Source of the DNA: a virus
IMG/VR virus record: IMGVR_UViG_3300046680_000213
Coordinates: 1-31,909 of that record
DNA length: 31,909 nucleotides
Reading direction: 5' to 3' (one strand)
Below the pieces are notes generated by a model that saw only the letters and a program-made list of their open reading frames with translations, searched no databases and was not told the DNA's origin. Below are positions 2,222-4,792 of this stretch, one piece after another. The stretch's first letter is position 1. Every line of letters starts with the position of its first letter. A program made the translations under genes and the position numbers.

Positions 2222-2555
2222 CCCAGAGATATACAGCGCAGCGATTGCTGCCGTGATGGGAGAATATTCGGAGGCAGTGGTCGAATACGTGACCGATCCA
2301 CGTACCGGCTTGCCGAGCAGGCAGAAGTTTCTGCCCAACGTGGCAGAGGTGCGCGAGGCGCTCGATGCGCGAGCAGCAATCGTTCATCGGTCGTCCACTT
2401 ACGAACAGCGTGTGGCCGAGCAATTGCGCCTGACCGAGGAATGGAAAAATCGAGTGCCCTCTGAACGGCTGAAGGCCGCCGGGCGTGCCTGGCTCGATCG
2501 CACTGACCCGAAGGCGCGGCAGTTGTCTGGGGATACGCGCCGTGAACGTCCTTGA
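2043..2555 (+). CDS. Conserved phage protein of unknown function, overlapping the replication gene
   Basis: A 170-residue protein. The middle part, from MLSCYRKDETHNPEIYSAAI through VTDPRTGLPSRQKFLPNVAEV, is a pattern I recognise from proteins encoded just after replication genes in alphaproteobacterial phages; no function is established that I know of. AGGA lies seven bases before the ATG at 2043, so that start is good, but it puts the first 179 bases inside the replication gene in a different frame. An alternative in-frame ATG at 2187 reduces the overlap and still keeps the conserved part. The C-terminal third is charged and helical. By position it may be a helicase-loading or replication accessory protein. 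Confidence 0.7.
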   Translation: MDQDDREHFKTIASALPARQQDLQKKPNGESSHSGRGPAAFCLRRAELMLSCYRKDETHNPEIYSAAIAAVMGEYSEAVVEYVTDPRTGLPSRQKFLPNVAEVREALDARAAIVHRSSTYEQRVAEQLRLTEEWKNRVPSERLKAAGRAWLDRTDPKARQLSGDTRRERP

Positions 2556-3984
2556 CCTATTCAGCGGCATAGGAGGATTTTCCCTTGGCCTCGAACGAGC
2601 CGGAATGCGCACCGTCGCCTTCTGCGAGATTGATCCCTATTGCCAGCGCGTATTGCGAAAGCACTGGCCAGATGTCCCTGTTTTCGGAGATGTACGAGAG
2701 CTCACCGGCGAAGTTATTGCCGACACCATCGGCGGTGTCTTACGGGAGCAATCAGGGCGGCGGGATGGGTCGTGTGGGGCCGGTGCGGCTGAGTTTGGAG
2801 ACGATGGCGCGGCGGCAGATGTGGCCGACACCGCAGCGGCACGATGCAACGGGAGGTCGAGGCAAGAACAATCTGTTCGCGGACGGCCACTATTATCCGC
2901 ACGATTTAGCGGATGCGGTCAAACCAGAGTGGACCTTATCTGCGGCGGCTTCCCCTGTCAGGACATCAGCGTCGCCGGAAAGGGCGCAGGCATTGCGGGC
3001 GAGCGCAGCGGCCTATGGAAGGAATACGCCAGAATTATTGGCGAAGTACGACCCAGATACGTCATCGTGGAAAACGTCGCAGCTATGCTTGGACGGGGAC
3101 TTGGCGTTGTTCTCGGAGACTTGGCCGCGCTCGGGTTTGACACGGAATGGCACTGCATACCTGCTTCCGCCGTTGGTGCGCCTCACCGACGAGACAGATT
3201 GTGGATCGTGGCGCACGCCACAAGCGCGGGATGGCGATCCGAGGGGTCAGCAGTCGCCGGAGAAACGAATGACAGGTGGGCATTCAGTGAGTTTGGCGGA
3301 ACAGGTGATATGGCCGACGCCACAAGCTCGCGACAGTCACAACCGGTCTGGTCAAGCACATCGCTACGAGGACGAAAAACGCTGGAATTTGCAGGATTGC
3401 TTAGCGAGCCGCGGTCAGAGTGGTTCGCTGAACCCGACGTTCGTAGAATTTCTGATGGGATTTTCAAGGGATTACACGGAGACTTAAATGGGCGTGACGG
3501 AATGGATACCGTGCCAAGTACGGCTGCAGAACCAGAAAATAGCTTGCGAAATATGTGGTTCTCAATCTCGGCTCGGTCTGCATCACAAGGACCGCAACCG
3601 GACAAACAACTCGCCAGAGAACTTGCAGACGCTTTGCCCAACTTGTCACACACGCTTGCATTGGGCCGAGGACAAGATGCCTTGGCGGCGGCATCCTGTT
3701 TCCTGCAGCGTATGCGGGAAGCCTGCACAGCGCTTGGGGTTGTGCGCAACCCACAACACACGACGCAAGAGGCATGGCAGTCCCTATCTGACGAAGAAGC
3801 AGAAAGGGCATTCTTGGCGGCTTGTGGACGAGCGGACTGGCGGAGCGGTGAGTGGCTAGGTGTCCCACGGGTTGCCGTAGGAGTTAAAAATCGCGTGGAC
3901 CGCCTTAGAGCATTGGGGAACGCGGTCGTCCCCCAGATCCCTGAAATCATCGGACGGGCGATAATGCAAAGCATCAAGGACTAG
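2542..3984 (+). CDS. DNA (cytosine-5) methyltransferase with two large internal insertions
   Basis: A 480-residue protein from a GTG at 2542 that overlaps the previous gene by 14 bases. The C5-methyltransferase motifs are all visible: I, DLFSGIGG (residues 5-12); IV, GGFPCQDIS with the catalytic Cys of PCQ at 138-140; VI, ENV at 177-179; VIII, RRDRLWI near 216-222; X, GNAVVP near 459-464. It would methylate cytosines in a short site, probably to shield phage DNA from host restriction. Two stretches are unusual: residues about 61-127, before motif IV, and about 226-440, the target-recognition region. Both are longer and lower in complexity than expected and coincide with genes in another frame (2585-3487 and 3488-3859). 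No restriction partner is visible. Confidence 0.9.
   Translation: MNVLDLFSGIGGFSLGLERAGMRTVAFCEIDPYCQRVLRKHWPDVPVFGDVRELTGEVIADTIGGVLREQSGRRDGSCGAGAAEFGDDGAAADVADTAAARCNGRSRQEQSVRGRPLLSARFSGCGQTRVDLICGGFPCQDISVAGKGAGIAGERSGLWKEYARIIGEVRPRYVIVENVAAMLGRGLGVVLGDLAALGFDTEWHCIPASAVGAPHRRDRLWIVAHATSAGWRSEGSAVAGETNDRWAFSEFGGTGDMADATSSRQSQPVWSSTSLRGRKTLEFAGLLSEPRSEWFAEPDVRRISDGIFKGLHGDLNGRDGMDTVPSTAAEPENSLRNMWFSISARSASQGPQPDKQLARELADALPNLSHTLALGRGQDALAAASCFLQRMREACTALGVVRNPQHTTQEAWQSLSDEEAERAFLAACGRADWRSGEWLGVPRVAVGVKNRVDRLRALGNAVVPQIPEIIGRAIMQSIKD
2585..3487 (+). CDS. WPTP-repeat protein nested out of frame inside the methyltransferase
   Basis: A 300-residue open frame lying wholly within the methyltransferase gene, in another frame. 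It carries features of a phage protein family I have seen beside or fused to cytosine methyltransferases, without known function: LLPTPSAVSYGSNQGGG (44-60), MWPTPQRHD (79-87), SWKTSQLC (161-168), SETWPRSGLTRNGTAYLLPP (177-196), WRTPQARDGD (209-218), WPTPQARDS (243-251), and the terminal LNPTFVEFLMGFS (282-294). Parts overlie unmistakable methyltransferase motifs: SWKTSQ is read from the same DNA as the ENV motif. Some of the apparent conservation may therefore be a shadow of the other frame. The stop TAA is followed at once by the ATG of the HNH gene in the same frame. Confidence 0.45.
   Translation: MASNEPECAPSPSARLIPIASAYCESTGQMSLFSEMYESSPAKLLPTPSAVSYGSNQGGGMGRVGPVRLSLETMARRQMWPTPQRHDATGGRGKNNLFADGHYYPHDLADAVKPEWTLSAAASPVRTSASPERAQALRASAAAYGRNTPELLAKYDPDTSSWKTSQLCLDGDLALFSETWPRSGLTRNGTAYLLPPLVRLTDETDCGSWRTPQARDGDPRGQQSPEKRMTGGHSVSLAEQVIWPTPQARDSHNRSGQAHRYEDEKRWNLQDCLASRGQSGSLNPTFVEFLMGFSRDYTET
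3488..3859 (+). CDS. HNH endonuclease nested out of frame inside the methyltransferase
   Basis: A 123-residue protein with a clear HNH nuclease core: CEIC (20-23), the His pair of LHHKD (32-33), Asn45 in ENLQTLC, and CPTCH (50-54), where two CxxC pairs hold structural zinc. A second zinc-binding group follows (C73, C76, C86, H89) with a basic tail ending RRKRHGSPYL, typical of small HNH homing endonucleases. The ATG directly follows the TAA of the upstream nested frame. The whole gene lies in the target-recognition part of the methyltransferase, whose own frame stays open across it. The core is too complete to be a chance shadow. Such enzymes nick DNA and can spread their own gene. Confidence 0.75.
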   Translation: MGVTEWIPCQVRLQNQKIACEICGSQSRLGLHHKDRNRTNNSPENLQTLCPTCHTRLHWAEDKMPWRRHPVSCSVCGKPAQRLGLCATHNTRRKRHGSPYLTKKQKGHSWRLVDERTGGAVSG

Positions 3985-3987
3985 GAA

Positions 3988-4152
3988 ATGCCGGAACCAA
4001 TCCAAGCACAGATAGACATGCCAAGCCAAGCAGAGATAGACCGGATTCTTTTTGCTTGGGAAACGCAATGCCGGAGGCTCTGCGATGCGGTTAGGCCATC
4101 GTTATTGATAGAGGCCGCCCGTATTGCCGCCCTCGCCGCCGCGCGGCACTAA
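3988..4152 (+). CDS. Small hypothetical protein (54 aa)
   Basis: ATG three bases after the methyltransferase stop, with AGGA seven bases upstream, reading to a TAA at 4150-4152. The product begins MPEPIQAQIDMPSQAEIDR and ends in an Ala/Arg-rich helix, with two cysteines near residues 34 and 38. It lies between the intact methyltransferase and the remnant of a second one. The tight spacing and good ribosome site support translation. There is no recognisable family. Confidence 0.55.
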   Translation: MPEPIQAQIDMPSQAEIDRILFAWETQCRRLCDAVRPSLLIEAARIAALAAARH

Positions 4153-4197
4153 CGCCCGATAAACGCCGCGCATGATGTATCCAGCAAAATCACCAGT

Positions 4198-4308
4198 CTT
4201 GCGTCGCGACTTAGGTCGCTAGGCAATGCGGTGATTCCGCAAATCCCCGAAATCATCGGACGGGCAATCATGAACCATGAAAAAACCCCAGAGCGAGAAA
4301 GTGCATGA
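4198..4308 (+). pseudogene. Remnant of a second cytosine methyltransferase (motif X end only)
   Basis: Read from 4198 this frame gives LASRLRSLGNAVIPQIPEI, then IGRAIM and a short unrelated tail to the TGA at 4306-4308. It closely parallels the end of the intact methyltransferase (LRALGNAVVPQIPEIIGRAIM), including a run of 17 identical bases around the EIIGRA codons. No start codon or other methyltransferase motif precedes it; the frame reaches a stop at 4150. It is therefore the 3' stub of a duplicated or recombined gene. Its last codons overlap the start of the gene at 4277. Confidence 0.7.
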
Positions 4309-4792
4309 TCGCCGTGCTGAGATTACGGCCATACAGGCACAGGGCACCGTTGCCGCGGTTGTTGCCGATCCCTACTCGGAGATCGGCGAGACGATCACTG
4401 TCCTGCGCGCCACCAGGGACGATCCGCTGGCCGGCATGCTGGCTCGAGGGTCGATCGATCTGGCGCAATACGCGGCTGGTCGAGAGTGGCAGCGATACTG
4501 GGAGGACGCTCAGATTGGTGCCGTGCGGGCGATAGATCCGACACGCGAGCCGGTCGACGGCAAGGGCCCTGTGCGCTCGCCCTACACGGAGAAACAGCAC
4601 AAGGCCATGGAGGAATTGCGCACCGTGACGGTGACGCTCGGCTATGAGGGCAATCGCCTGGTGCGTGACATTCTGGGCGATCGCGTGCCGCTCGAGCTGG
4701 CTGCGCAACACCGCGGCCGATCGCGCAAATACATCGGGCTGCGCTTTAGGGAAACCTTGGAGACGATGGCCAAGGTCTGGGGGTTTGCGTGA
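4277..4792 (+). CDS. DUF6456-like protein with C-terminal helix-turn-helix-like region
   Basis: A 171-residue protein. The middle reads DPYSEIGETITVLRATRDDPLAGMLARGSIDLAQYAAGREWQRYWE, a pattern I associate with DUF6456 proteins of alphaproteobacteria. The C-terminus, ELAAQHRGRSRKYIGLRFRETLETMAKVWGFA, resembles a helix-turn-helix that would contact DNA. It lies at the end of the early genes, before the packaging region, where lambdoid phages keep the late-gene activator Q. A regulatory role is plausible by position but not shown. The start overlaps the methyltransferase remnant, and no strong ribosome site is seen. Confidence 0.65.
   Translation: MKKPQSEKVHDRRAEITAIQAQGTVAAVVADPYSEIGETITVLRATRDDPLAGMLARGSIDLAQYAAGREWQRYWEDAQIGAVRAIDPTREPVDGKGPVRSPYTEKQHKAMEELRTVTVTLGYEGNRLVRDILGDRVPLELAAQHRGRSRKYIGLRFRETLETMAKVWGFA

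Follow-up and report, generated by a model that had tools for sequence, protein, structure and literature searches.

A phage C5-cytosine methyltransferase gene enclosing an overprinted +1-frame protein, its proposed small subunit, and an HNH endonuclease gene

Lee, Kam and Shaw are said to have found in 1995 that the small polypeptide of M.EcoHK31I, a bacterial methyltransferase with the specificity YGGCCR, is encoded inside the large gene in another frame. In PMC3404938, the larger subunit of this enzyme is described as having motifs I–VIII and X and a predicted recognition domain, which the 1995 authors, as cited there, assigned to the large polypeptide, and motif IX stands alone on the smaller subunit. 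The same source describes M.AquI, whose smaller subunit carries both IX and X. An HNH endonuclease hidden in phage DNA methylases has also been reported as the ShiLan domain, which is inserted out of frame; its GTG start lies in the third frame, 18 bp inside the insertion, and no RBS could be detected for it (PMC11855218, 2025). The text of PMC11855218 was searched for WPTP and EcoHK31I, and neither is mentioned.

Here we describe a locus in which three genes lie on one stretch of DNA, i.e., a C5-cytosine methyltransferase (alpha), a +1-frame protein (W), and then an HNH endonuclease. An annotated case is that of Paenibacillus phage Rani, in which the W frame nested inside the methyltransferase gp50 is annotated as gp51, 'g50 Internal gene'. 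Rani gp51 matches phrog_1008 (1.6e-74); its record gives no function beyond 'DNA methyltransferase' and notes no general pattern. The family phrog_1008 itself is named 'DNA methyltransferase', although its member W has none of the catalytic motifs. Literature searches on phage methyltransferases with nested genes gave nothing but general reviews of overlaps and unrelated papers. The parts each resemble known things, but the arrangement that they make together is widespread and has hardly been described so far; its breadth, frame exchange, module movement and recurrent three-gene nest are unreported as far as the open literature shows.

Layout of the nested genes

The window, by which we mean the whole stretch of DNA analysed (31,909 nucleotides), is a 31.9-kb tailed-phage contig with genes for a terminase, a portal and a major head protein. 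The features of the locus are as follows.

2542–3984, plus strand: alpha, the large polypeptide of the C5-cytosine methyltransferase (ORF; PF00145, phrog_363, TIGR00675)
2571–2576, plus strand: AGGAGG, a full Shine-Dalgarno (SD) match within the motif I codons of alpha, 8 nt before the TTG of W (sequence)
2585–3487, plus strand: W, the WPTP protein overprinted in the +1 frame and proposed as the small polypeptide, beta (phrog_1008; shuffles; codon columns; SD)
2714–2833, plus strand: extra WPTP module of W, W residues 44–83 (matches in other loci)
3428–3463, plus strand: motif-IX-like block of W, LNPTFVEFLMGF (sequence, codon columns, relatives)
3478–3481, plus strand: GGAG, which overlaps the 3' end of W and precedes the HNH start codon by 6 nt (sequence)
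3488–3859, plus strand: HNH endonuclease gene, in the W frame (PF01844)
3916–3936, plus strand: motif X of alpha (GNAVVPQ), the methyltransferase (MT) frame resumed after the HNH cassette (translation)
4183–4278, plus strand: a further, orphan motif X tail of the MT, RLRSLGNAVIPQIPEIIGRAIM (sequence)

Alpha is read in frame 1 from a GTG at 2542, with GGGGA upstream, to 3984, in an ORF that starts at 2485. It was matched in profile searches to PF00145 (2.8e-41), phrog_363 (2e-79) and TIGR00675 (9e-33). This single chain carries motifs I–VIII and X, including I, IV (PCQ), VI (ENV), VIII and X, and no clear match to motif IX was found in the translation of the window methyltransferase. The earlier note had credited the methyltransferase with all canonical motifs, which has to be corrected on this point. 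The +1 frame is open from 2585 to 3487, where a TAA (3485–3487) is directly followed by ATG at 3488, and is then open to 3859; the reading of the ORFs agreed here with the claim of a second frame interrupted only once. W is a WPTP protein of 271–300 residues that matched phrog_1008 (1.4e-29), and the HNH product matched PF01844 (1.7e-5, 25.3 bits against a gathering score of 21.4). All three products match known families, and the proposal of three nested genes, with a 300-residue WPTP protein followed by an HNH nuclease in the second frame, was upheld.

The overlap is not limited to the window. W lies over a C5-methyltransferase in the same phase in 163 of 163 clean viral or phage loci, which include ones retrieved with the methyltransferase alone. 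The phase is also the same in all 80 bacterial loci, which are from many phyla and were retrieved with W, and W is always together with a methyltransferase there. In phage records, the pair commonly appears as two genes named 'DNA methyltransferase' or under the label 'internal gene'. In three viral contigs from other metagenomes (L013, L014 and L015), W is 100% identical to that of the window.

Constraint on the W frame and its translation start

As the null, the synonymous codons of the methyltransferase were permuted, with the protein and the codon usage preserved. The real +1 translation scored above every synonymous shuffle with the W profile in 137 of 137 distinct relatives, with a mean of 220 bits against 88 bits for the shuffled sequences. 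The 77 loci from L097 on were held out of the training of the profile, and all 77 beat all of their shuffles. L182, a classic one-frame methyltransferase, fails the same test. In the relatives, 3.1 stops were observed in the +1 frame versus 6.6 expected, and the +2 frame of the 137 relatives showed no depletion (12.8 observed versus 11.9 expected). W of the window scored 426 (shuffle mean 128, maximum 174), and its frame has 6 stops versus 14.5 expected. The longest +1 ORF of the window (304 codons) was matched by 0.02% of 5000 synonymous shuffles, and the identity of its W frame to L097, L099, L016, L019, L030 and L029 exceeded the null by 5 to 9 standard deviations.

Codon columns were compared in 106 methyltransferases that are less than 75% identical. 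W is conserved in them from just upstream of motif IV to past the motif-IX block, and it is among its most conserved over motifs VI–VIII (MT residues 169–226). Opposite MT residue 180, which varies between A, P and S, W has Gln in 86 of the 106, and opposite MT residue 446, which varies between D, H and N, it has Met in 95 of them. The codon of MT Gly198 is GGG in 100 of the 106 loci, which differ widely in GC. Position 3 of the MT codon is position 2 of the W codon, and its difference rate was 0.60 over MT 1–57, the stretch before W. The rate was 0.34 at MT 170–179 and 0.28 at 190–199, with 0.54 in between, and at the W tail (MT 440–449) it fell to 0.21, below the rate of position 1 there. 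The low rates at MT position 3 and these tell-tale columns indicate that W is real also over the strong methyltransferase motifs. In the earlier note, the second frame had been regarded as at best a shadow there, and as most protein-like where the methyltransferase looks abnormal. Both ideas failed, because W is conserved over motifs VI–VIII as well; the appearance of a pure shadow is limited to MT residues 1–57. The comparison of both frames among homologues, which the same note had proposed, gave several W residues that are near-invariant where the MT residues vary, and codon-position rates that are inverted at the W tail.

W is thus a true, ancient +1-frame protein under selection, and not a product of chance. 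The opposite explanation, that the second frame is a shadow kept open by GC-rich codon use and the conservation of the methyltransferase, can point to the shuffled methyltransferases, which still average 88 bits with the W profile. For this reason a match over the methyltransferase core only proves little, and such a match was rejected as stand-alone evidence. However, a shadow would have to account for 137 of 137 loci above all shuffles, including genomes of 37–44% GC, for a +2 frame without any loss of stops, and for the inverted rates at the W tail. We consider it extremely improbable.

W is probably translated in vivo by internal initiation. In the window, the AGGAGG upstream of the TTG at 2585 is encoded by the glycine codons of motif I; an alternative start is the ATG at 2672 (MSLFSEM), which is common to L097 and L099. 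Upstream of motif IV, the open W frame contains an ATG in 91% of the loci versus 52% of the shuffled ones, and a W start with an SD of at least 4 bases is present in 45% versus 15%. L087, L088 and L091 have the opposite of the usual arrangement, with motifs I–III encoded in the W frame and those from IV on in the other, possibly by the use of a frameshift or by a frame switch. A full chain of this split would need a change of frame, and programmed frameshifting from the methyltransferase N-terminus therefore stays as a minor rival for the synthesis of W. The excess of ATG codons before motif IV and of SD–start pairs, and the AGGAGG of the window, argue against it, and we hold it to be quite improbable.

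Motif IX, the WPTP modules and the role of W

W ends in LNPxWVEWLMGFPxGWT, which is similar to the motif IX that classic enzymes have (for L182, KLTPKECWRLQGFPDWAF). The same DNA encodes EPDVRRISDGI in the MT frame of the window. The two frames have a common spacing of P and G at this block (EPxVGRVADGVP in alpha), and a profile made from mostly alpha sequences places the alpha EPxVGRVADGVP on the motif IX region of M.HhaI. Scanned with Pfam for motif IX, the W-type proteins gave no useful match, and a PDB sequence search with the W-type protein of L006 gave no match. With Pfam silent and the alpha profile aligned in this way, the assignment of motif IX rests mainly on the single-chain relatives. 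By its resemblance and its place in these relatives, the C-terminal block of W would correspond to motif IX, and we refer to it as motif-IX-like.

The motif-IX-like block, motif X, or both switch frame among the relatives. In L076 and L083 (B-type), alpha ends after motif VIII, and W carries the motif-IX block and motif X; L006, L008, L009 and L178 have a short alpha and a W that continues alone. The W-type proteins of L083 and L006 match C-terminal parts of C5-methyltransferase families. PFR1, xhp1, Tweety gp72, L092 and L089 have motifs I–VIII, a VEWMMGxP-type block and motif X in one chain, and LPTP is also included in the same frame in PFR1, Tweety gp72, xhp1 and L092. The single chain of L092 is predicted to have the full C5 methyltransferase fold; its model (pLDDT 79, pTM 0.79) was superimposed on M.HhaI over residues 1–315 with Z 22.4 and an rmsd of 4.6 for 255 aligned residues. 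The AlphaFold model of W alone was poor (pLDDT 57.5, pTM 0.30) and was set aside. The mixed alignment A2, into which the W tails had been entered as fragments, was dropped for folding, as MAFFT put the tails over motif IV. Two further variants were observed: in L183 (2318–3488, Mycobacterium phage Jarcob gp69/gp70), motif VIII lies in the W frame and alpha is truncated after '...GYDAQW', and in L264 (2001–2762, E. coli PCP07014), a prophage copy of a related methyltransferase is annotated as a pseudogene with an internal stop.

From these observations, we consider it likely that the product of the locus is a C5-cytosine methyltransferase made of two polypeptides, like M.EcoHK31I, whose subunits are encoded in overlapping frames, and that the HNH was inserted later. 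Alpha would provide SAM binding, catalysis (motifs I–VIII) and motif X. W, from its own internal initiation site, would contribute the motif-IX block along with the variable WPTP modules, and these may form or complete the target-recognition part; several alphas of the relatives are only about 230 residues long, which leaves little space for a recognition domain. The two polypeptides would assemble into one enzyme that methylates the phage DNA, probably as a counter to host restriction.

The proposed small polypeptide of the window lies in another frame of the large gene, as is said of M.EcoHK31I. Motifs I–VIII and X are on alpha, and with the motif-IX-like block on the smaller W taken as motif IX, the partition would be that of M.EcoHK31I, and the window enzyme would work like it. 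On the other hand, M.EcoHK31I is bacterial while the window gene is from a phage. Its recognition domain is placed in the large polypeptide, whereas W is proposed for recognition here, and neither WPTP modules nor an HNH nest, both found in the window, is described for M.EcoHK31I in the literature consulted. M.AquI is likewise a C5 methyltransferase divided between motifs VIII and IX, but its motif X is on the small subunit while that of the window is in the alpha frame. L076 and L083 have the IX and X partition of M.AquI, but their subunits overlap out of frame.

Alternatively, W could be a real overprinted protein outside the methyltransferase, e.g., an anti-restriction or DNA-binding accessory that travels along with it. 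W alone is unmatched in Pfam and NCBIfam, its N-terminal half has no assigned role, and this half, over motifs IV–VIII, persists as a shortened +1 W in single-chain relatives; these points, together with the poor model of W alone and the blindness of Pfam to motif IX in W-type proteins, speak against two polypeptides of one enzyme. An accessory, however, would not be expected to exchange motifs IX and X between frames with the methyltransferase, to have its C-terminus inside one C5 methyltransferase in the single-chain relatives, or to occur only alongside the methyltransferase in 80 of 80 bacterial loci. We regard the accessory as unlikely. The motif partition and the single-chain relatives point to W as a missing part of the enzyme, and not to the unrelated gene that the WPTP protein had been taken for. 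In L005, L010 and L180, which are single-chain, the retained W-like +1 ORF ends near the point where the W-type part resumes in the main frame.

MT residues 61–127 of the window are an insertion that is rare among the relatives. In the W frame it contains the extra WPTP module (W residues 44–83), for which 22 matches were found in other loci, the best ones about 60–79% identical. All 22 sit in the slot after motif VIII, in the +1 phase. The simplest reading is that the module was copied or moved within W with both frames kept open.

The HNH insertion and the wider class

The HNH cassette occupies about MT 310–435. The HNH gene would have been inserted later at the motif-IX coding site, giving W a new 3' end and stop and leaving the alpha frame open, with about 125 extra residues before motif X; it may be a homing endonuclease. 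The MT frame has 0 stops across the HNH of the window versus 3.8 expected (P=0.0035). The same nesting, with the HNH in the W frame and within the methyltransferase ORF, was found in five further viral contigs (L102, L112, L149, L161 and L162), where the HNH lies directly or shortly behind the W stop or, in L161, is fused to W. The MT frame is free of stops across the HNH in 6 of 6 contigs (the window and these five), with null probabilities for the HNH itself, where computed, of 0.0035 (window), 0.016, 0.156, 0.001 and 0.035. In L161 (2377–3615), W and HNH are one +1-frame ORF with no stop between them. Pieces of the displaced W tail recur downstream of the HNH in L149 and L102. The copy of the motif X tail in the window is separated from the end of the gene by 200 bp, in which there is a 54-aa ORF (3988–4152), and is probably the displaced original 3' end of the methyltransferase gene. 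No Rfam match, to a group I intron or otherwise, was obtained at the gathering threshold in 2300–4400.

The nest is present in six contigs and absent from many, with no close pair with and without it among them, and the HNH is the sole part that looks like an unrelated late arrival. Of the abnormal regions pointed out earlier in the methyltransferase, 61–127 (the WPTP module) and about 310–435 (the HNH) are indeed insertions; the supposed alternation with W was not found. Methyltransferases without them were sought as suggested, and both the WPTP module and the HNH cassette are absent from most relatives. The rarity of the insertions, together with the shuffles, bears out overprinting or stepwise insertion that kept both frames open, rather than simple chance.

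The out-of-frame HNH in a phage methylase with an unbroken methylase frame and no known intron resembles the ShiLan domain. In contrast, the window HNH is in the second (+1) frame, and its ATG stands behind the stop of the overprinted W with GGAG present. With its own SD and its position directly behind the W stop, coupling to W would be a simple answer for its translation. Such coupling to an overprinted gene is a testable answer to the question raised in PMC11855218 on how the hidden HNH is translated.

More tentatively, though it is quite possible, the locus may stand for a very large class of C5 methyltransferases, of phages and prophages alike, that are split over two overlapping frames, in which W carries exchangeable WPTP recognition modules that change slots in a phase leaving both frames open, and a mobile HNH is translated via the W stop. 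If this is true, the movement of WPTP modules would be a natural system to re-target methylation. Long same-strand overlaps in phages are usually single cases, whereas this overlap is found in every cleanly resolved member sampled, from many phyla, and it therefore offers a large natural data set on codon sharing, frame change, fusion and insertion. Many genes annotated as 'DNA methyltransferase' would, if W is the missing subunit, account for only one half of an enzyme, the other half being hidden by gene callers that do not allow overlaps.
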